Assembly: GCA_030425385.1 (NCBI GenBank)
Contig: JAUIAH010000003.1
Coordinates: 124,001-188,000 of the forward strand
Source: Verrucomicrobiia bacterium
Lineage (GTDB): Bacteria > Verrucomicrobiota > Verrucomicrobiia > Verrucomicrobiales > DEV007
Reading direction: 5' to 3'
Length of the DNA: 64,000 bases
Part shown: in pieces, positions 1,623 to 37,133 of the stretch
How positions within the stretch are numbered: the stretch's first letter is position 1
How the letters are laid out: each line of letters opens with the position of its first letter
The notes under the pieces: generated by a model
Database searches by the model: none
What the model was told of the DNA's origin: nothing
What the model saw: the letters and a program-made list of their open reading frames with translations, nothing else
Translations under genes and position numbers: made by a program

Positions 1623-2216
1623 TTAGGGTTCGATCATCCCGTAGTCGCCATCCTTGCGCCGGAAGAGAATGGAAAGCGTGTCGGTCTTGGCGTGCCGGAA
1701 GACGATGAAAGAGCGTTCGCTGAGTTCCATTTCCATGATGGCCTCATCCTGATAAAGAGGACGGATGCGGTAGTTCTCTTTGTGCACAATGACAGGCGCG
1801 ACTTCTGCTTCCTCAGTTTCCTGGCTGTCAGAAACTTCCGGGACGTCAGGTTTGAAGACCTGCTCGCTGATGTATTTGATCGTTTCGTCGCGACGTGGAC
1901 GGTGGCTCTTGAGTAGGCGCGTCTTGTACTTGCGCATACGCCGCGCAATCTTGCTCATCGTTTCATCAATGGACTTGTACATGTCCTCCGTTTCGGAACT
2001 CGCCTCAATGGTGATGTGATTCGCGCAGAAGAGAATGATCTCGGCGATCTGACGTTTCTTATCTTCCACGTCGAGGATGACTTTGGCCTCGATGATGCGG
2101 GGGTAGTCGAGGTGAAGCCCTTCGACTTTCTTGTGGGCGAAATCGCGCATGGCTTCCGTGACTTCGACGTGGCGTCCGGTCACCGTGATGGGCAAGTTTA
2201 CGTTGGCTGTCTGCAT
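1623..2216 (-). CDS. hpf: Ribosome hibernation promoting factor, long form
   Basis: This protein binds ribosomes in slow growth or stationary phase and, in its long form, drives 100S dimer formation. The N-terminal ~105 residues have the HPF/YfiA fold: an opening ITVTGRHVEVTEAM and a basic helix ending KYKTRLLKSHRPRR. An acidic linker follows, and then the C-terminal dimerisation domain, recognisable by KENYRIRPLYQDEAIMEMEL, SFIVFRHA and ILFRRKDGDYGMIEP. At 197 residues it is the usual long-form length. It lies between lptB and hprK in one operon, the same neighbourhood that hpf occupies in proteobacterial lptB-rpoN-hpf-pts clusters. Confidence 0.95.
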   Translation of the reverse strand: MQTANVNLPITVTGRHVEVTEAMRDFAHKKVEGLHLDYPRIIEAKVILDVEDKKRQIAEIILFCANHITIEASSETEDMYKSIDETMSKIARRMRKYKTRLLKSHRPRRDETIKYISEQVFKPDVPEVSDSQETEEAEVAPVIVHKENYRIRPLYQDEAIMEMELSERSFIVFRHAKTDTLSILFRRKDGDYGMIEP

Positions 2217-2258
2217 AGGATTAATCTGGGTGGGTTTATGTTTCGAGATAAGACCATA

Positions 2259-3038
2259 TTACATGCTGAACCGATCTCCCAGGTAAAGTTCCCGGGTGAT
2301 AGGATCGTTGATGAGAAAGTCGCTCGTGCCTTCGCTCTCCACTTTCCCCTCGTAGATGAGGTAGGCACGGTCCACGATATCGAGCGTCTCCCGCACATTG
2401 TGGTCGGTGATGAGGATGGCGAGCCCGGAATCGCGAAGGTCGCGGACAATTTCTTGCACGTCGTTCACGGCCTTTGGATCCACGCCGCTGAAGGGTTCAT
2501 CTAGCATGAGGAGGCTGGGATTGGTCACCAGCGAACGGGCGATGGTGAGGCGACGCTTCTCCCCACCGCTGAGCGTGAGCGCCTGACTCTTGGCAAGCTT
2601 GGCAATGCCGAACTGCTCTAACAGTTGCTCGCAGCGTGCTTTCCGCTCCTGTCGGCTCATGGGCTGCGTTTCTAACACGCCCATGATGTTCTGTTCCACG
2701 GTCAGTTTGCGAAAGATAGACTCTTCTTGGGGGAGATACCCCATGCCGAGACGTGCCCGCTTGTACATGGGTTGGCGCGTCACGGCATGCTCGCGAAAGA
2801 TCACGTCACCTCCATCCGGTGGCACCAGGCCCACGATCATGTAGAAGGTAGTCGTCTTGCCAGCGCCGTTGGGCCCTAGCAAACCCACCACCTCGCCTGG
2901 GCGCACGTTGATGTCCACGCCTCGGACGACGGCACGGCCATCGTAGACCTTGACCAGACCTTTCGTCGCCAAGAGAGCTTCTCCCCTCTCAGGATGGCGA
3001 TCTGTTGCTTGCGTAGACTTCGATTTGCCGTGCGCCAT
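2259..3038 (-). CDS. lptB: LPS export ABC transporter ATPase LptB
   Basis: This is the ATP-hydrolysing subunit of the LptB2FG complex, which extracts lipopolysaccharide from the inner membrane. Visible motifs are Walker A GPNGAGKTT near residue 54, the ABC signature LSGGEKRR, Walker B LLMLDEPFSGVDP and the switch histidine in LITDHNVRETL. At 259 residues it is slightly longer than typical because of a short charged N-terminus. It starts 5 bp after the lptA-like gene and precedes hpf. The LptF/LptG permeases are not in this window. Confidence 0.95.
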   Translation of the reverse strand: MAHGKSKSTQATDRHPERGEALLATKGLVKVYDGRAVVRGVDINVRPGEVVGLLGPNGAGKTTTFYMIVGLVPPDGGDVIFREHAVTRQPMYKRARLGMGYLPQEESIFRKLTVEQNIMGVLETQPMSRQERKARCEQLLEQFGIAKLAKSQALTLSGGEKRRLTIARSLVTNPSLLMLDEPFSGVDPKAVNDVQEIVRDLRDSGLAILITDHNVRETLDIVDRAYLIYEGKVESEGTSDFLINDPITRELYLGDRFSM

Positions 3039-28872: not shown

Positions 28873-30579
28873 ATGAGTACAGAAACAGAATTGTCTGCCT
28901 TGTCAGACATGATCTCGAAGTCGTTCCAGACGTATCGAGAAGGCAGCATCGTCAACGGTACGGTGCTTGAAATCAAACCGCAGGTCGTCCTGGTCGACAT
29001 CGGTTATAAATCAGAGGGAGCGATTCCGATCACGGAATTCGAGGATGAAGAATTTGAAGTGGGGGACGAGATCGAAGTCCTTCTAGAGCGCCTTGAGAAC
29101 GATGAGGGCATGGTGGTCCTCTCCAAGGAGAAAGCCGCTCACAAGCAGAACTGGGACAAGATCGTCAAGGTTTACCAAGATGGTGGCCTGGTGCGGGGCA
29201 AAGTGAAATCCGTCGTCAAGGGCGGACTCATGGTCAATGTGGGCGTCGAGGCCTTCTTGCCAGGCTCCCAGATCGATATCATTCCACCGAAAGATCTCGC
29301 TGAGTACGTCGGGAAGGTCTTCGAGTTCAAGATCGTCAAGGTCAACGACGATCGGAAGAACATTGTTCTGAGCCGCCGCGAAGTCATCGAGCAAGAACGC
29401 GCCGAGCTTCGCCAGAAATTCCTCTCTGAGGTGCAGGTGGGCGATAAAGTCGAAGGCTTGGTCAAGAACATCACTGACTTCGGAGTCTTTGTCGATCTCT
29501 CTGGCATGGACGGCTTGCTCCACATCACGGACATGAGCTGGGGCCGCATCAGTCATCCAAGCGAGATGGTGGCCATTGGGCAGAATCTCGAAGTGATGAT
29601 CTTGGAAGTGAATCGCGAGAAAGAGCGCGTGTCGCTCGGTCTCAAGCAGATGGCAGACAATCCATGGGAGAACATCGAAGATCGCTATCCTGTTGGGCAC
29701 CAAGTCAGAGGGAAGATCACCAAGCTCGTACCTTATGGGGCGTTTGTGGAGATCGAAGACGGTGTCGAAGGCCTCATTCACGTCTCTGAGCTTTCGTGGA
29801 CGAAGCGGATCACCCGTCCATCCGATGTGCTCGAACTCGACCAGCAAGTCGAGGCCGTGGTCTTGGGCATCAACAAGGAAGAGCAGAAGATCTCCTTGGG
29901 TGTGCGTCAACTGGAGCCCAATCCCTGGGACGAAGTGGAAACCCGTTACCCCGTTGGCAGCCAGATCAACGGCAAGATCCGCAACCTCACCGCCTATGGT
30001 GCCTTTGTGGAACTGGAAGATGGTATTGACGGCATGATACACGTCTCCGACCTCAGTTGGACGCGTAAGATCAATCATCCAAGCGAGCTGCTCAAGAAAG
30101 GGCAGGAACTCGATGCGGTCGTCATTGACATCGATAAGACCAATCAGCGTATCAGCTTGGGCATCAAGCAACTGGAGAATGATCCATGGTCTGAGATCGA
30201 CACCCGATTCAAGGTTGGCGACCTCGTCAAGGGCACCGTTGCCAAGATCGCGAGCTTCGGAGCCTTCGTGCAATTGCAGGATGACATCGACGGCCTCGTG
30301 CACATCTCACAGCTCAGTGAAGATCACGTCTCACGGGTCAAAGACATCCTCAAAGTGGGTGACGACGTTGAAGCGCGCGTCATCAAGGTCGACAAAGTAG
30401 AGCGTCGGATTGGACTCTCGATCAAAGCGGCCAACTACGATCAGGAGCAACTCGAGCGCGAAACCAAAGCCTTCGAGGCTCTCCGCCCAAGTGCAGATCT
30501 GGTTGGACTCGAGCACGCCTTCAACCTGGCCACCGAAGAGTGGAGCCCGGGCGAAGACAGCAGCGGGGACAAAGAGTAA
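28873..30579 (+). CDS. rpsA: 30S ribosomal protein S1
   Basis: Six S1 (OB-fold) RNA-binding repeats occupy almost the whole 568 residues. The first (GSIVNGTVLEIKPQ) and second (VKSVVKGGLMVNVG) are ribosome-binding types. Repeats three to six are closely similar to each other, each with a GAFVE/GVFVD turn and a G(L/M)(L/I/V)H(I/V)S-type strand (HITDMSWG, HVSELSW, HVSDLSW, HISQLS). S1 helps recruit structured or Shine-Dalgarno-poor mRNAs, which suits this window where strong Shine-Dalgarno sequences are scarce. A strong terminator follows 17 bp after the stop. Confidence 0.97.
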   Translation: MSTETELSALSDMISKSFQTYREGSIVNGTVLEIKPQVVLVDIGYKSEGAIPITEFEDEEFEVGDEIEVLLERLENDEGMVVLSKEKAAHKQNWDKIVKVYQDGGLVRGKVKSVVKGGLMVNVGVEAFLPGSQIDIIPPKDLAEYVGKVFEFKIVKVNDDRKNIVLSRREVIEQERAELRQKFLSEVQVGDKVEGLVKNITDFGVFVDLSGMDGLLHITDMSWGRISHPSEMVAIGQNLEVMILEVNREKERVSLGLKQMADNPWENIEDRYPVGHQVRGKITKLVPYGAFVEIEDGVEGLIHVSELSWTKRITRPSDVLELDQQVEAVVLGINKEEQKISLGVRQLEPNPWDEVETRYPVGSQINGKIRNLTAYGAFVELEDGIDGMIHVSDLSWTRKINHPSELLKKGQELDAVVIDIDKTNQRISLGIKQLENDPWSEIDTRFKVGDLVKGTVAKIASFGAFVQLQDDIDGLVHISQLSEDHVSRVKDILKVGDDVEARVIKVDKVERRIGLSIKAANYDQEQLERETKAFEALRPSADLVGLEHAFNLATEEWSPGEDSSGDKE

Positions 30580-30596: not shown

Positions 30597-30625
30597 AGAA
30601 GGCGCACCCACAAGGTGCGCCTTCT
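30597..30625 (+). terminator. Intrinsic terminator of rpsA
   Basis: A perfect 12-bp stem (AGAAGGCGCACC) with a CACAA loop is followed by CTCTCTG. It lies directly after rpsA and before the REP-like palindrome. Confidence 0.8.
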
Positions 30626-30634
30626 CTCTGCCAC

Positions 30635-30675
30635 TTCAATAAAAGCACATTGCTTTTATTGAAATAGCGGTTGAC
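30635..30675 (-). repeat. REP-like palindrome next to the RAYT gene
   Basis: A perfect 13-bp inverted repeat with a 3-nt centre (TTCAATAAAAGCA, CAT, TGCTTTTATTGAA; 30635-30663) is followed on the plus strand by GGTTGAC. Read on the minus strand, GTCAACC-nnn-ATTTCAATAAAAGCA-rTGTGCT matches the copies at 36939 and 37052. It lies 33 bp upstream of the transposase start. Confidence 0.75.
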
Positions 30676-30707
30676 GAGGTGAGGCGATGGGGCGTTAGCT
30701 GGTTGGG

Positions 30708-31691
30708 ATGAAGCCACGTCAGATGCAGATTTGGACCTCCGAGGGCTCGCGAGGGCAGTATTTCCATGTGATCGCACGTACGGCGAATCGCGTGTGGTGC
30801 CTGGATGATGAGGCGAAACGAATGTTTGTGCGCTTGATGCGCAAGACGGAGGCGTTCTCAGGGTGTGCGGTGGTGAGCCACTGCTTGATGGATAATCATT
30901 TCCACCTGGTTCTCTTTGTACCGAATCGCGAGGGCTTGGAGAACGATCTGAGCGATGAGGCGTTCTGGGATCGCTTGGCGGCACTCTACACGCGCGAGGA
31001 AATGGACGCGATCCGGATGCGGATGATGCTCTTTCATCGGTTGAATCCCGGTCCCGTAGGGTTGGCGCAAGAGGCGTCTTACCGGCAGACGTTCTTGAAG
31101 CGAATGTGGGACCTGAGCGAGTTCATGAAGACACTCCTGCAACGATTCTCGACATGGTTTAACAAGCGCCATGACCGAGTGGGGCGGCTGTGGGAACAGC
31201 GTTTCAAGAGTTTGGTGATCGAAGGTCGGCAGGAGTCGTTGATGGCGGTGACTGCCTACGTGGATCTGAATCCTGTGAGGGCGGGGATGGTGGAGGATCC
31301 GAAGGACTATCGGTGGTGTGGCTACGCAGAGGCGATGGCGGGGAAACGAGAGGCGCGCTGTGGATTGGGGCACTTGATGCATGGACAAGGAGATTGGCGC
31401 GTTGTTAGTCGGGAATATGGAAGGCTCCTCAGTGGAGAGCCCTCTGAGGGTGCATCGACAGATCGTGCGAAAGTGCATGCGAATCTCTCTCTGCCAGTGC
31501 TACTGCGCTGTCGGGTGCGCCATTTCACAGATGGCGTTGTCATTGGGTCGAAGGCTTTCGTCGACGCCTTCTTTGAAGCCAAGCGCACCTACTTTGGTTC
31601 CAATCGGAAGGACGGTGGTAGGAAGTTGCCTAAGGGGCAGTGGGGGCAGATCCGCAGTTTGAGAGATTTGCGGGATGATCAATCAGGATGA
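30708..31691 (+). CDS. REP-associated tyrosine transposase (RAYT, Y1_Tnp/IS200-like)
   Basis: This HUH-type single-strand transposase relative has 327 residues. The metal-binding His pair lies in DNHFHLVLF (H64 and H66). The catalytic Tyr is expected in AYVDLNPVRAGMVEDPKDY (Y184), and LWEQRFKSLVIEG precedes it, all typical of RAYTs. RAYTs are single-copy, host-maintained proteins that are thought to disperse REP sequences. The REP-like palindrome directly upstream and similar repeats 5-6 kb away support this assignment. The C-terminal ~120 residues are an extra, Arg/Lys-rich domain without a recognised family. Confidence 0.85.
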   Translation: MKPRQMQIWTSEGSRGQYFHVIARTANRVWCLDDEAKRMFVRLMRKTEAFSGCAVVSHCLMDNHFHLVLFVPNREGLENDLSDEAFWDRLAALYTREEMDAIRMRMMLFHRLNPGPVGLAQEASYRQTFLKRMWDLSEFMKTLLQRFSTWFNKRHDRVGRLWEQRFKSLVIEGRQESLMAVTAYVDLNPVRAGMVEDPKDYRWCGYAEAMAGKREARCGLGHLMHGQGDWRVVSREYGRLLSGEPSEGASTDRAKVHANLSLPVLLRCRVRHFTDGVVIGSKAFVDAFFEAKRTYFGSNRKDGGRKLPKGQWGQIRSLRDLRDDQSG

Positions 31692-31709
31692 GATCCTAAC
31701 GGAAATTTG

Positions 31710-33125
31710 TCAATCGAGGCCGTCTGCGTAGTCATCGAAATCATCACCGCTTTGTCGCCGACGTCTGGCGTGGCGAATGGCCATCCCCACAATGACCGCA
31801 ATGGGAATCAGTGTTAGGAAAGTGTAGAGTGCTTTCTTCCCGGCCATGCTCTTCACCTGGAAAGTGACCGATGCTGGTTTGACTCCCCGCGCAGTGGCAG
31901 CGACACGGACGCGATAAGCACCCGATTGACGGAGCGAGAATGATGCACGGGTGCCATCAACGGTCTTCTTGGGTATCTTGGCGCCAGGTGGCCCCGTGAC
32001 GGTGACCAGATACTGACACCCGGGTGGGGGATTCACCACACGCCAACTAACAGAAACGCTTCCTGAAGTGATCACCATATCTTTCCGTGGTGACTGAAGA
32101 ATGATCTCGCTCAATGCACTTGGATCATCAGTTGACGTCGCCTGCGCATTGCCAACATCGAAGCTGCCTTGTAGCCGGTTGCCGTCTTGCGTGGTGACGT
32201 CTACCTGATGCCTCCCTGCCTGGAGCGCTGGAAAGCTGACGCGAGCTGTCGGCGTTCTTTGAACCAAGGGCACTCCATTCGGAGGCGTAAGCGTCACTTC
32301 ATATTCCATTCCTGCGGTCGCATTGAAACTATCCCAAGAAATGACGGCATCCCCCCCTTCACGAAGGCCTTGGGGGACCTGCAAATTCCCTAACTTGGCG
32401 CTTCCGGTTCCTGTCGGAGTTGTGTCGCCCGCTAGCCTAACCAAACGGACGTTCACCTGAAGGACATACTCCCCTTGAGTGTCCCGGTGGGTGAAAGCCC
32501 CGATCTCGCCGTTCACCGGCACATGCTTGAGGCTCTTGAACTCTCTCACCGCGATCTGGTCGTCTGTATCGACGATGTTCTCCTTGTCTTCACGCGCATC
32601 AGTGATCTCTACTAACAAATAGGCTGTGAGGCCTCTAGCGATAGCCTCTTGCCGAGTCTTGGCCCTCGCTAACCAAAGAAAAGTTCGTTGATCGCGGAAA
32701 TCATTCGCTTTGGGAAAGCTCGCAAAGAGCTCCTCCACATCCCGCGATGGATCGCTGATGACGCGGTGGAGCGCAGGGGTTTTTGAGGAGGCAGGATCTC
32801 CGAAACGCTTGAGAAACAGGTGACTCCCTCTCTCTAGCAGAGGGATGCGATTGGCACTCTGACTGGTGATGGATTGGATCTCAGGAGAGAGAAGAGTGTA
32901 CTGCCAACGCCCGTGGTTGCCCCAATCAAAGCGGTCAGTGAGCAAGTCGCGGACAAGAGTCTTCGCTTGCATGACCTTGTCGTGCCCAATGCCATATCGA
33001 GTTCCAGTCATTGAGCCTGACACATCCACCAAGACGAAGATGTCTTTAGGTAAGGCGCGCTCCTGAGCGACTGCTTGCACACAAGCAGTGATCAAGATGA
33101 GGAAGCCAATAGCGAATCTCGACAT
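31710..33125 (-). CDS. Membrane-anchored von Willebrand A domain protein
   Basis: This 471-residue protein has a signal peptide (ends AVAQE). Its vWA domain opens IFVLVDVSGSMTG (the DxSxS metal-ion site). An extracytoplasmic region with two or three Ig-like strand sets follows (about 260-430), then a C-terminal transmembrane helix (TFLTLIPIAVIVGMAI) and an acidic cytoplasmic tail. It is the last gene of a minus-strand set with a second vWA gene, a coiled-coil membrane gene and an SGNH hydrolase. It is probably a protein-interaction module at the cell surface; no ligand is suggested. Confidence 0.72.
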   Translation of the reverse strand: MSRFAIGFLILITACVQAVAQERALPKDIFVLVDVSGSMTGTRYGIGHDKVMQAKTLVRDLLTDRFDWGNHGRWQYTLLSPEIQSITSQSANRIPLLERGSHLFLKRFGDPASSKTPALHRVISDPSRDVEELFASFPKANDFRDQRTFLWLARAKTRQEAIARGLTAYLLVEITDAREDKENIVDTDDQIAVREFKSLKHVPVNGEIGAFTHRDTQGEYVLQVNVRLVRLAGDTTPTGTGSAKLGNLQVPQGLREGGDAVISWDSFNATAGMEYEVTLTPPNGVPLVQRTPTARVSFPALQAGRHQVDVTTQDGNRLQGSFDVGNAQATSTDDPSALSEIILQSPRKDMVITSGSVSVSWRVVNPPPGCQYLVTVTGPPGAKIPKKTVDGTRASFSLRQSGAYRVRVAATARGVKPASVTFQVKSMAGKKALYTFLTLIPIAVIVGMAIRHARRRRQSGDDFDDYADGLD

Positions 33126-33138
33126 AGAATGTGAAGCT

Positions 33139-34422
33139 CTAACGGACGCGCTGCATGCGCTTGGGAGTGATAAAGAGTGCTAGAAGGGCGCAGATGACGA
33201 AGATCAGAACGGTGATGAAGACGAGATCCTTGTCCACCGTCCATGGGCTCAGCAGGTCCTTCAACACCCGCTGATACATTTCCGGGTCTTGTGCATCATT
33301 GTAAGTCATTCCGGCCGATTCAGCAGCACGGAAGAAGGACTCGCCTTCACCACCCGCATCTTGTTCGAGGCGCACGTCGATGAAGTGCACCATGTCACTG
33401 GGAAAGACGGTGGCAAAGCCCTCGTCTCCATTGAAATAGTGCGCGTCCGTTTCACGGTAGAGCACGCGCCGATCTTTCCCATCGGTGATGATGAGAAAGA
33501 GGCGATTGGGGAATGTGAGGGGATCTTGCTGGTTGACATCAAGGTAAGTTTTCCAAATGCCCTCGCTGATAGGTGATCCTTGGTCGGTGCTCACGCCTTC
33601 GATGTGAGCGATCGCTTCGTCGGCATTCTCAAAAGCTTGCACTGAGCCGGAAAGGGAATCCATCTGGCCGGGCGTCACGTCCATGATCTCTCCGATAGAC
33701 CGGTAGGTGGGTTCGCGGTCGAAAGTGGTGATCACAAATTTCGATTTGTTAGGAAATTGAGGCAAGATGGTACGAAGGATCTCACGAGCTTGTGCAATGG
33801 GCTCCTCCATGCTGCCCGAATTATCGAGAAGGATGGCCACCAGTGATGGCTTGCTTAGACCTGGAATGAAGAGTACGGCGAGCCCTAACAGAGGCAGTAA
33901 GAGCCAAACCTTCGTTTGACGGAACGCACGGCGCAGACGTGTGACTGTGCGCACTTCTTCTCGCGGGGTATGCGCCTGTGGTGCCAAATTCTTTAACTTC
34001 TGCCGTGTGAAGCTTCCTCGAAGTTTCACCAAGGCGATGACTGGGCAGAGCATGGCGATGGTGAAGCTGATCAATGTTGGCAATTCATAATTGGTCCGGA
34101 AGGCTTCTCCTCGGCGACTGACAAAGGTGATCCATGCCACAAGGAGAAGAGCGGTGAGACAGCCAGCAACGAGCCAGGCGCGCCATAGATTAAAGATCCG
34201 GGTAAAGCGAACAGGAGGATCGCCTGGTAGAGGATTGGTATCTGAGTTAGGGTATGGGCGTCGGTAGACCTTGGCCATGATCAAGACCATGAAGATCATG
34301 ATGAGCACGGTGGCAATCGGCGTGACCCAGAACTTAAGGCTCAGCAGATTGGCGTGTTGAAAGTATTTCAGCAACGTTGGCCAAACGTTGTTGAAGCGTT
34401 CTGTGAGGGCGTCCAGATTCAT
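33139..34422 (-). CDS. Multi-pass membrane protein with vWA domain
   Basis: This 427-residue protein has an N-terminal membrane region of about four helices (near residues 30-50, 85-105, 115-135, 170-190). A vWA domain opens AILLDNSGSM, followed by LFLIITDGKDRR. One more transmembrane helix lies near the C-terminus (LVFITVLIFVICALLALFI). This is the general layout of BatA/BatB-like proteins, although the usual MoxR ATPase partner is not in the window. It is 13 bp from the next vWA gene and in the same operon. Confidence 0.7.
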   Translation of the reverse strand: MNLDALTERFNNVWPTLLKYFQHANLLSLKFWVTPIATVLIMIFMVLIMAKVYRRPYPNSDTNPLPGDPPVRFTRIFNLWRAWLVAGCLTALLLVAWITFVSRRGEAFRTNYELPTLISFTIAMLCPVIALVKLRGSFTRQKLKNLAPQAHTPREEVRTVTRLRRAFRQTKVWLLLPLLGLAVLFIPGLSKPSLVAILLDNSGSMEEPIAQAREILRTILPQFPNKSKFVITTFDREPTYRSIGEIMDVTPGQMDSLSGSVQAFENADEAIAHIEGVSTDQGSPISEGIWKTYLDVNQQDPLTFPNRLFLIITDGKDRRVLYRETDAHYFNGDEGFATVFPSDMVHFIDVRLEQDAGGEGESFFRAAESAGMTYNDAQDPEMYQRVLKDLLSPWTVDKDLVFITVLIFVICALLALFITPKRMQRVR

Positions 34423-34443
34423 GCCTTAGTTAGGAAAACCGGT

Positions 34444-35727
34444 TTAGCTGAGGATGACTTGCGTTTCTTCATTCTCCCAACCCCGTTCACGCCGCAAGCC
34501 ATAGGCGAGCACACAGAGGATCTGTCGACGCGGCAGATCCAGGTGACGGTAAACTCGTGGAAGCTGTTTGGACGCGTTGTTGCGCACGAAGCTGGCGTCG
34601 GTGTCCGTGAAGTCGGAGAACAGTGGAACGTAGTTTGGAGTATAACCAGCGAGTCGCCTCGTCTTCGTCAGAAGGGTTTCCACCATAGGGTTCACTTGAT
34701 CGGCAATGGCTTGGCATCCGTCATGAGACGAAAGAGCGCCGCAGAAATTCGGGAGATGGCGCAATTCCTCCACGAGAATGAGGTGATCACTGATGCTCTG
34801 CTCAAGGACATCGCGGTAGAGGGCGCGGTGAATCGTCCGGGCGCCTTCCTCAGGAGACGATGTGCGTTGCAGACGTTCAGACAACGAGAGATCACAAATA
34901 TAACCACTTTCCTCAGCGGCCTGCAGGAGTGCCCGCCAACGGGCTTGAGGCAGCGATGCTTGCTTGTGATGAAAGCGTGAGAGGATCCAGCTCATAAGGG
35001 CTAAGGATTCTCCAGGGTCCTCGGCTTCAGAAAGCGCATCATAGATAGTGCCGATGCGTTCTCGGATGTCTGCTAAGGAGTCGAGAAATTGGCGCGGGCC
35101 TTCGACTGCTTTGGGAATCCATTCGTCATTCTGAAAGAAGGGTGAGGCAGCCCCGGAAGCGGGAGTGGCGCGGTCCGTCGACAAGCGAGAACTCTCGCCA
35201 AGGTGATCGCGCAGCCGATCGGCGACTTGGCTGGTGTCTAACGTCGGGCTGGGCAAATTTCCTGGCAAATGACGCAAACTGTCCTCCACTCCTTCCAGGC
35301 GAAGCCGCTGGCGCTTCAACTCGTCGTGCTGATTCTTAAAACGTTGGGCGAGCCACCATCCTAATAGAAAGAGTGAGATAGGAAGAAGGACAAAGGCACT
35401 GAGCATGAGCCAGAGAAGGCGGCCTTGAAGGCCTTCCGTGATCCGGTGAATCCGGGCCACATCATTGCTGAGCCCTTGGTGTCGACGGCGTGCTTCAGCT
35501 TCCTGGATACCTGTCTCGCGTTCGAGAGATTCCAGTAGATCACTTCTTGTAATGGCTTGTAAGTTGGCCTCGATCGCCTCGATGCGGGTTGTATCGGCGG
35601 ATGCCTCCACCATTCCCTCGGGCTCCTCAACCTCAGAGGAATCCTGTGCGGGGACCGTCGCTATGAGGAGCCAAGCTGCGAGCGGCCACCGGAGCCAAGT
35701 GGAGAATCGCCGAGGAACGATAGCCAT
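34444..35727 (-). CDS. Coiled-coil membrane protein of unknown function
   Basis: The start is taken at the ATG 35725-35727 (MAIVPRRFSTWLRW), which opens a plausible signal peptide; an upstream in-frame ATG at 35772 would overlap the neighbouring gene. The 427 residues comprise a signal peptide, a coiled-coil-prone periplasmic stretch (about 30-100), a transmembrane helix (LLWLMLSAFVLLPISLFLLGWW) and a large cytoplasmic helical domain. No family was recognised. It lies upstream of the two vWA genes and probably works with them. Confidence 0.6.
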   Translation of the reverse strand: MAIVPRRFSTWLRWPLAAWLLIATVPAQDSSEVEEPEGMVEASADTTRIEAIEANLQAITRSDLLESLERETGIQEAEARRRHQGLSNDVARIHRITEGLQGRLLWLMLSAFVLLPISLFLLGWWLAQRFKNQHDELKRQRLRLEGVEDSLRHLPGNLPSPTLDTSQVADRLRDHLGESSRLSTDRATPASGAASPFFQNDEWIPKAVEGPRQFLDSLADIRERIGTIYDALSEAEDPGESLALMSWILSRFHHKQASLPQARWRALLQAAEESGYICDLSLSERLQRTSSPEEGARTIHRALYRDVLEQSISDHLILVEELRHLPNFCGALSSHDGCQAIADQVNPMVETLLTKTRRLAGYTPNYVPLFSDFTDTDASFVRNNASKQLPRVYRHLDLPRRQILCVLAYGLRRERGWENEETQVILS

Positions 35728-35768
35728 GAGAGGTGTAGGGTAGCCCGCTCCTTGCGAAGTGCAATCGT

Positions 35769-36872
35769 TCACCGTGTGCTCTCAGCGCCCGATAAGTGGT
35801 TGTTCACCAAATACTTGGCAAAGAGCTGTGCCTTGAGGAGACTACCATCTCGGTTGACGTGGCGACCATCGTGCCAATAGCGCTTCTCCTGTGACATCTG
35901 TGAAGCAAAGTCGAAACAAGGCAATTCCTTGTCTGCAGCAAGGCTTCGGACGACGGCATTCAGTTCTCGGAAGCCGCGCTGATAGAAATCAAAGCTGGCA
36001 TAATCATGCTCAAAACCGGGACACCAAGCCCAGGTGGTAAGCACGCATTCGACTCCGTGTTCGGCGCAAATGGCTGCCATATTGCGAAGGTTATTCCGAT
36101 AATGCGTTGGCGGGTGTTCATCTAGCAATTTATCGAAGGCAAGATTGGGATCCTCATATTGGCTGTAGGGGCCAATGTAAGTGTCGGCGTCCACAAACGG
36201 TTCCAACCCAATATGGGACCCTTTGTGAAGCCTCTTCACGATCCGATACATGGTCGAGTGCTGCTCTAGCCACGAAAGATCTTCCCATTCCCAGGCTTTC
36301 CGCCGACCGCGATTGTCCGCGCGGTAGTGCCCAGGACGTACAAAGCGGCAGTGAACGTCATTGGCGCCGTGGTGGATCAGCACCAGATCGGGCTCCATTT
36401 CTAATCCGCGAAAGCAGAGATTGATCAAGGACTCAAAGGAATTGTAGCCGGGAACCCCCGCATTGATGACCTCGACCGTGGAATATCCATGTTCCTCACG
36501 CAACAGGCGTTGGAGGTGAGCTGGAAAGGTCTCACGGTCAGCGCCGACGGCTTCGGTGTAGGTTGTGGAACCTCCGAGCGCCAGGATTCGGAAAGTCCCC
36601 TCAGGTTTGGTCAATGTCGTTTCAGGCCCTCGCCAACCGAGAGCATTGTGGTGCTTGTCGCCTTGGGTGTAGCCGGGAGTGTTCACATAAGTCAGATACG
36701 GATGGGTGCTCACTCGGCGCTCCCTAGGAGGAACGTCCTCAAACACGGAGAACTGGTGCCTGATGGGAGTCGGAGCGATCCACCGTACGTAGACGCGGGC
36801 CAACCCTTCGGTAACCAGTAAGCCAAAGCCAACGAGCAGGATCTTGGGCCAGAATGGCAAGCGACGGTTCAT
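35769..36872 (-). CDS. SGNH/GDSL-type hydrolase, membrane-anchored
   Basis: The start is the ATG at 36870-36872 (MNRRLPFWPK), giving 367 residues with an N-terminal membrane anchor. Catalytic blocks of the SGNH fold are visible: ILALGGSTTY (nucleophile Ser in block I), an INAGVPGYNS block II, IHHGANDVHC (block III Asn) and HDGRHVNRDG (Asp and His, block V). Such enzymes are esterases or deacetylases, often acting on cell-surface glycans. The 5' end is flanked by the REP-like repeat cluster. The substrate is unknown. Confidence 0.75.
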   Translation of the reverse strand: MNRRLPFWPKILLVGFGLLVTEGLARVYVRWIAPTPIRHQFSVFEDVPPRERRVSTHPYLTYVNTPGYTQGDKHHNALGWRGPETTLTKPEGTFRILALGGSTTYTEAVGADRETFPAHLQRLLREEHGYSTVEVINAGVPGYNSFESLINLCFRGLEMEPDLVLIHHGANDVHCRFVRPGHYRADNRGRRKAWEWEDLSWLEQHSTMYRIVKRLHKGSHIGLEPFVDADTYIGPYSQYEDPNLAFDKLLDEHPPTHYRNNLRNMAAICAEHGVECVLTTWAWCPGFEHDYASFDFYQRGFRELNAVVRSLAADKELPCFDFASQMSQEKRYWHDGRHVNRDGSLLKAQLFAKYLVNNHLSGAESTR

Positions 36873-36920
36873 GCGGTCATTGTGGGCCAAACCCGAGCGG
36901 GAACAACACCAGGCTAGCGC

Positions 36921-36970
36921 GAAGTCCACCGCATCTGCGTCAACCTCATTTCAATAAAAGCAGTGTGCTG
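36921..36970 (+). repeat. REP-like repeat copy A
   Basis: This 50-bp unit matches copy B (37034-37083) at 47 of 50 positions. It contains GTCAACC and ATTTCAATAAAAGCA, the same core found on the minus strand next to the RAYT gene. Short tandem units of the form gctgttatcgggaggcg follow it. It lies between the SGNH hydrolase and YdcF-like genes. Confidence 0.8.
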
Positions 36971-37026
36971 TTATCGGGAGGCGAAAGCGGTGTGCTGTTA
37001 TCGGGAGGCGCTGTTATCGGAAGGCG
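36964..37026 (+). repeat. Tandem short repeats between the two REP-like copies
   Basis: The unit gtgtgctgttatcgggaggcg occurs at 36964 and 36990 (the second preceded by aaagcg), followed by a shorter ctgttatcggaaggcg at 37011. Diverged versions follow copy B at 37077-37111. The units look like decayed right halves of the REP palindrome. Confidence 0.7.
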
Positions 37027-37033
37027 CTGGAGC

Positions 37034-37083
37034 GAAGTCTACCACATCGGCGTCAACCTCATTTCAATAAAAGCAGTGTGCTG
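37034..37083 (+). repeat. REP-like repeat copy B
   Basis: This is the second 50-bp copy, with the ATTTCAATAAAAGCA core at 37061-37075. Its right half continues as gctgctatccagaggcg, which no longer pairs well with the left half. Confidence 0.8.
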
Positions 37084-37133
37084 CTATCCAGAGGCGCTGT
37101 TATTGGGAAGCGGTCGATGGGTGTGCGGGGCCT

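Follow-up and report, generated by a model that had tools for sequence, protein, structure and literature searches.

A RAYT-class transposase gene and its left-end palindrome as a probable asymmetric mobile element in a Verrucomicrobiia genome

What kind of system is formed by a Y1-type transposase gene that carries a perfect palindrome at its start and has related repeats some 6 kb away? The question is raised by a 64,000-nucleotide stretch of contig JAUIAH010000003.1 (assembly GCA_030425385.1; G000:C35:124001-188000, hereafter the window) from a Verrucomicrobiia bacterium whose genome comprises 8.0 Mb in 74 contigs. A first-pass annotation, drawn from the letters of the window, read the arrangement as a REP-associated tyrosine transposase (RAYT) paired with repetitive extragenic palindromes (REPs) of a distinct sequence family. 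In the sections of the literature that bear on the point, class-2 (RAYT) genes are said to offer 'no evidence' of mobility (PMC6006769; PMC8266576), and most tnpAREP genes are described as single copy, without evidence of mobility, while the way in which REPs spread is called unknown (PMC8266576). The evidence set out here gives a probability of about 0.7 that gene and palindrome together make up a single mobile element, asymmetric and about 1.05 kb long, of the RAYT (TnpAREP-like) class.

The gene is present in many copies. A tblastn search with the window transposase returned 40 matches in its own genome, none with an internal stop. Thirty-five of these loci were analysed, the other five rows being fragments, and they fall into three families, A (3), B (17) and C (15, one truncated), with 34 full-length open copies among them (A 3, B 17, C 14). 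Protein identity to the window copy is 86-87% for the other two A copies, ~64% for B and ~40% for C, and DNA identity within families has a median of 94% in B and 91% in C, with a maximum of 96% in each. The 34 full-length copies sit at unrelated sites; among 68 flank segments outside the elements only three pairs are similar, all of them B right flanks. For B (16 copies, without L037) the ratio of nonsynonymous to synonymous divergence (dN/dS) is 0.10 at a dS of 0.21, and for C (14 copies) it is 0.13 at a dS of 0.28, so the copies are old and have been kept functional. The transposase has matches in 36 of 57 genomes, counting its own, with a maximum of 46 in a single genome and 0, 2 and 2 in three congeners. 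Two genomes in this set, G022 (5.5 Mb, 46 matches) and G046 (2.8 Mb, 34 matches), are denser in such genes than the window's own.

The enzyme is encoded by an open reading frame at 30708-31691 on the plus strand (327 aa, family A) that contains NHFH, WEQ and YVDLNP. Its score of 38.5 bits against Pfam Y1_Tnp (PF01797; cut-off 23) bears out the Y1-type gene of the first-pass annotation; against NCBIfam REP_Tyr_transpos it reaches 58.5 bits, below the curated cut-off of 80 bits. An AlphaFold model built from 18 sequences has a mean predicted local distance difference test score (pLDDT) of 81.7, and its best Foldseek match is 4er8, E. coli TnpAREP bound to a REP hairpin (E 4.7e-5). Alignment of the model with VIA-align gives Z 15.9 for IS608 (root-mean-square deviation 2.8, 103 aligned) and Z 13.4 for 4er8 (3.0, 158 aligned). 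The catalytic core is the HUH-Y1 core of the TnpAREP type (Y---NP), composed of NHFH and YVDLNP; the class-2 motif Y[IV]DLN[PAS] occurs in 78 of 79 aligned sequences, and the class-1 Y---Q of IS200/IS605 is not found in the enzyme. Its closest named relatives are from metagenome-assembled genomes (MAGs) of Verrucomicrobiota and Kiritimatiellota. Plasmid matches are to Alteromonadales, consistent with subclass 2.3, and the long insertion and C-terminal tail are partly common to Pseudoalteromonas and Vibrio homologues. Judged by the predicted structure, the enzyme has the fold of RAYT/TnpAREP proteins and belongs to their class.

Homology among the three family-A copies begins, in the window, at a hairpin at 30635-30663 (no strand assigned), with arms TTCAATAAAAGCA and TGCTTTTATTGAA around the loop CAT. 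The arms (30635-30647 and 30651-30663) pair perfectly over 13/13 bp, and as single-stranded DNA the hairpin has z = -3.3, with equally good folding in 1 of 200 shuffles. It directly follows an intrinsic-terminator-like hairpin of the host (30597-30625, plus strand, inverted repeat of 12/12 bp), which stands after an S1-domain (rpsA-like) gene at 28873-30579 and forms the left host flank of the insertion. An equivalent terminator hairpin follows the orthologous rpsA-like gene in 3/3 congeners, and after it neither the left-end hairpin nor the transposase is found in any of the three. The palindrome had been placed 33 bp upstream of the gene: the hairpin is indeed perfect, but the 33 bp count from the GTTGAC motif, and the hairpin itself ends ~44 bp before the ATG. 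The motif in question, GGTTGACG (30669-30676, plus strand), is conserved after the left-end core and forms on the minus strand the hairpin foot 5'-CGTCAACC; GTTGAC, GTTGTC or CTTGAC is conserved at this place in families A, B and C and in many relatives. GGTTGACG could equally serve as the -35 box of a transposase promoter, and CGTC may only complement a TTGACG promoter box; no consensus sigma-70 promoter was found at this motif in the A copy.

The same left boundary recurs beyond the window. In A and C, homology between copies begins sharply, ~59-72 bp upstream of the gene. The left end consists of the palindrome in A, of AAAGGGACAGG...GTTGTC in B and of AAGGGTCnGACC...ATTGACGG in C; by eye, relatives have AATAAAGGGACAGGC...TTTTATT...CTTG at the same position, and upstream of a Vibrio plasmid homologue stand two copies of AAGGACAG[AG]C. 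A left-end hairpin is present in 3/3 A copies, where the left end folds with a median z of -6.4, and left-end core motifs precede 28 of the 32 B and C copies.

The right side follows no such rule. Homology among the A copies stops at approximately 31664-31673 (plus strand), inside the open reading frame, and the last codons and the stop differ from copy to copy in A and in roughly half of C. A fixed 3' terminus was considered for family C and rejected, about half of the 14 copies apparently keeping a related stop (TTCGTAG-like) and the rest a copy-specific one. Within subgroups, B copies share tails that range from ~28 to several hundred bp; right flanks common to different copies were not found in A or C. 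Right-end hairpins are lacking in all three families (median z A -0.34, B -0.90, C -0.31). The left-end core recurs in inverted orientation near the right end in 0/34 copies, and no inverted matches of at least 9 nt between the ends were found in the 15 of the 34 copies tried, leaving no sign of the terminal inverted repeats of TIRYT systems. The element is asymmetric, with a defined left end and a variable right boundary. This asymmetry bears on the idea of a conventional insertion sequence of the IS200/IS605 type, with a hairpin at each end and precise excision, for which the shared fold with IS608, the left-end hairpin in A and the high copy number would speak. Set against the class-2 motif, the missing right-end hairpin and inverted repeat and the variable right limit, that reading is very improbable.

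In the two other family-A copies the palindrome has longer arms. Arm pairing runs over 32 contiguous positions in L019 and 37 of 38 in L020; between these two copies, the right arms differ at seven of the first 36 positions, and at all seven the left arm carries the complementary change (7/7); their loops, CAT and ATG, are reverse complements of each other. One arm would have been copied onto the other, or matching kept by selection, and the inverted loop is best explained by fold-back copying. The coding regions of the A copies are mosaics as well. L018, L019 and L020 share 97-99% identity in the catalytic half vs 59-61% in the C-terminal third, with dS rising from 0.16 to a saturated 2.5, a contrast suggestive of recombination or of 5'-directed conversion; in its C-terminal part L019 resembles B (0.68) more than A (0.61). 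In L021 and L028 a B body is joined to another left end and to other first residues, which points to an exchange of 5' parts between elements.

The left end is also the place where local repeats accumulate. Direct repeats of at least 12 bp within 300 bp lie on the left of 15/35 copies (one of the 15, L061, being a host array) and on the right of 2/35 (Fisher p 0.0005), with far controls at 1/32 and 0/31. Among B and C copies, two or more left-end cores lie in the 420 bp upstream of 17/32 (L030 and L039 of these being of another type or doubtful), against 3/23 far upstream and 0/32 with any core on the right. Host flank is included in several of the repeated units (e.g. L027, L029, L036, L037 and L040), so these are duplications, not repeated insertions. 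By eye, the copy of congener G003 has a messy left-end array. In the same congener, locus L191 (C338) carries a long irregular array of GGGACGGAGTA / GGGACGGGGTATTTTTTGGTC units upstream of a related transposase.

Tandem units of this sort could be made without any transposase, by replication slippage and quasipalindrome correction at AT-rich repeats, and this is a real rival for their origin. Template-switch mechanisms that produce tandem units and perfect arms are known in general. Unit borders vary, and by eye the junctions share little or no sequence. As an account of the whole locus, the slippage reading would attribute the spread of the transposase copies to segmental duplication and horizontal transfer, with which the long right flanks shared by some B copies agree; yet only the left side of the gene shows the excess of repeats, the A and C flanks are unrelated and the left limit is sharp, so that this account is unlikely. 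A mobile element with a repeatedly duplicated left end is preferred.

The repeats near 37 kb have the same anatomy as the tandem left ends of gene copies. They comprise two minus-strand units of 71 bp each, 89% identical and spaced 113 bp. The first (36913-36983) is a left end without a transposase, with the core at 36948-36962, the CGTCAACC foot at 36938-36945, a direct repeat and a weak hairpin (z -0.35); the second (37026-37096) is its tandem duplicate, with the core at 37061-37075, a direct repeat and a weak hairpin (z -1.07). Nested within and beside them at 36957-37117, also on the minus strand, are three copies of a 48-nt unit (36957-37004, 36984-37031 and 37070-37117) consisting of flank and the left end's outer half. 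Two copies with the palindrome's core and some short decayed units had been reported here by the first-pass annotation, and both observations hold: the exact core ATTTCAATAAAAGCA stands at 36948 and 37061, and the smaller units are genuine tandem repeats. Since left ends are often duplicated in tandem, often together with host flank, the 37-kb pair is a solo, tandemly duplicated left end and not part of a large REP population.

The abundance of the core leads to the same view. The exact 15-mer occurs four times genome-wide vs ~0.0045 expected under an independent-base model: one copy is at the gene, two belong to the solo pair and the fourth is at C42:66363. The last of these and a one-mismatch match on C73 have neither the GTCAACC motif nor the palindrome, and look unrelated to the element. 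With up to three mismatches the window holds four matches to the core vs 0.89 expected, a number reached in 1 of 100 shuffles. The palindrome ATAAAAGCA-N3-TGCTTTTAT, again with up to three mismatches, is found at five places in the genome, three directly before gene copies and two in the solo units; the two gene-linked palindromes besides the window's own are diverged. Family A thus amounts to three gene-linked loci and one solo locus, far from the high-copy dispersal of a cognate palindrome. A genome-wide count had been proposed as a check, with confinement of the core to its three known places counting against a REP, and the few places found come close to that outcome for the window core. 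Nor are copies paired in inverted orientation as in BIMEs or REPINs, the arrays examined being head-to-tail.

A classical REPtron, in which a domesticated and essentially immobile RAYT scatters REPs, would make of the window a gene with three REPs of a distinct family. The enzyme class and the hairpin agree with it, gene-less modules do exist, and purifying selection on the copies would suit a domesticated gene. A REPtron gene is, however, typically single copy and non-mobile, and here 34 full-length copies occupy unrelated sites; the window core is not dispersed; the foot is CGTCAAC, with CGTC in place of the GT[AG]G of REPtrons; the arrays run head-to-tail; and a better candidate exists elsewhere in the genome, on C39. 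A REPtron at the window is accordingly improbable. Of the proposed RAYT/REP pair, the RAYT-class enzyme, a palindrome of its own and gene-less left ends survive, and the classical pair does not. The C39 candidate, L248 (G000:C39:128000-133000), is a separate RAYT encoded on the minus strand at ~1878-3000 of that stretch; it scores 82 bits, over the NCBIfam cut-off, and has palindromes GCCGACG-N4-CGTCGGC inside and beside the gene, several of them in frame (5 matches), that are absent from the window. L248 is probably a REPtron of the classical kind, some of its REPs having inserted into the gene itself.

A small dispersed REP-like population is present in the genome, of a module type other than the window's. 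The pattern AAGGGWC-N10-30-TTGACG has 40 matches in the own genome vs 8 for its reverse. In the stretches fetched, about 16 units of a 34-bp D module (one of 35) lie at 10 places, with AAAGGGACAGG...CTTGAC in common and GGCCTTGAC in most; they form tandem arrays of 2 to 5 at several places, and a transposase match was found in only one of the 12 stretches searched. The search pattern for D units required TTGAC, so their constant 3' border is partly built in. About 12 further bases are common to about half of the units, and D modules at L241, L237, L238 and L242 (C54, C55, C59 and C47) lie in or beside RHS-repeat-like coding sequence; part of their spread may therefore be RHS duplication. Pairs of C type without a gene occur at C27:7502 and C35:291257 and a B type at C33, and a B-type left-end pair with an internally deleted gene is found at C50. 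In the genomes of 38 relatives, the canonical left end TAAAGGGACAGRC has 0-2 matches each, not above the reversed control.

Several observations weigh against a mobile element. Its movement has not been observed, and no two copies are more than 96% identical, unlike a recent burst of an insertion sequence. A precise empty site with both flanks was not found for the window copy or L042 in the three congeners, because only the left flanks are syntenic there; at the L042 site, G001 has no left end beside the orthologous gene, and the G003 contig stops ~15 bp past the match. The B left ends lack a stable hairpin. Some B right flanks are alike over up to 529 bp, so segmental duplication may have spread part of the copies. 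Finally, the left bias of tandem repeats is not significant in relatives (8/43 left vs 6/46 right, p 0.57), and the clear bias comes from one genome. The right flanks of six B copies (L024, L025, L030, L034, L035 and L036) also share tails with CACAGATGG-type tandem repeats, which may be a separate dispersed family.

If gene and palindrome do form one mobile element, the Y1 HUH enzyme would bind the left-end hairpin on one of the strands and nick the single-stranded DNA there, probably, like its relatives, at replication forks. The transferred strand would start at the left end and end loosely on the right. Nicking or fold-back replication at the left end could then yield local tandem copies of the left end with host flank, and could also copy one arm onto the other, perfecting and lengthening the palindrome. 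Failed or local events would leave tandem left ends, some of which may outlive the gene. The loose, locally repeated left ends resemble the short repeats typical of the RAYT class at an early stage. A more far-reaching and tentative possibility is that the element stands, as a living intermediate, midway from insertion sequences to REP systems: a RAYT that still moves its own gene, one-ended and through a single strand, from a fixed palindromic left end to an open right end, and sheds its left end as gene-less modules. Were this true, REP families could arise by tandem duplication of the left end together with host flank. A genome that combines 34 intact unlinked copies with a defined left end and duplicating modules makes RAYT mobility and REP spread testable in one system, and a multicopy element bears on the view, expressed in the cited portions of two papers, that the RAYT class offers no evidence of mobility (PMC6006769; PMC8266576).

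Among known systems, the transposase resembles TnpAY1 subclass 2.3 in length and motifs. As that subclass is characterized in the relevant part of its description (Quentin et al. 2018; PMC6006769), the two share size (327 aa vs a median of 325), WE and YVDLNP, a long insertion after the HUH strand and before the next helix, a long C-terminal tail and many copies that are not near-identical. They differ in the HUH motif (NHFH here vs NHYH), in the closest named relatives (Verrucomicrobiota and Kiritimatiellota MAGs, not Chromatiales and Alteromonadales) and in the left-end palindrome and gene-less modules, the same part reporting no REP-like sequences for 2.3. REPtrons and TnpAREP, to the extent that PMC8266576 is drawn on (PDB 4er8), share the fold, the HUH-Y1 catalytic residues and a hairpin with an unpaired foot beside the gene; the CGTCAAC foot and the multicopy gene set the element apart from REPtrons with GTAG REPs. 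CGTC-tagged REPs, in the account available from Di Nocera et al. (2013; PMC3733652), likewise have a CGTC foot adjoining a hairpin, yet their stem is 8-9 bp and their loop 4-5 nt, compared with 13-37 bp and 3 nt here, and they are said to be without a dedicated transposase, whereas the present element adjoins one. Membership in that group, attractive in view of its reported lack of an enzyme, is doubtful, given the misfit of stem and loop and the chance that GTTGACG is a promoter -35 box. With the TIRYT/TIRtrons of the same account (PMC3733652), the element shares gene-less repeats and a B-type left end, AAAGGGACAGG, that resembles GGGGWSAS, and differs in the lack of an inverted core near the right end in all 34 copies. 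IS200/IS605 elements (IS608, ISDra2) are similar in enzyme fold, left-end hairpin and high copy number, and different in their right-end hairpin and tyrosine motif, the copies here being at most 96% identical. A literature search listed no paper describing comparable mobile multicopy RAYTs; no wider claim of being unpublished is made. In the comparisons made here the element lacks defining features of classical REPtrons, of IS200/IS605 and of TIRYT elements, and what the comparison leaves is an element that acts like an insertion sequence with an enzyme of the RAYT class.

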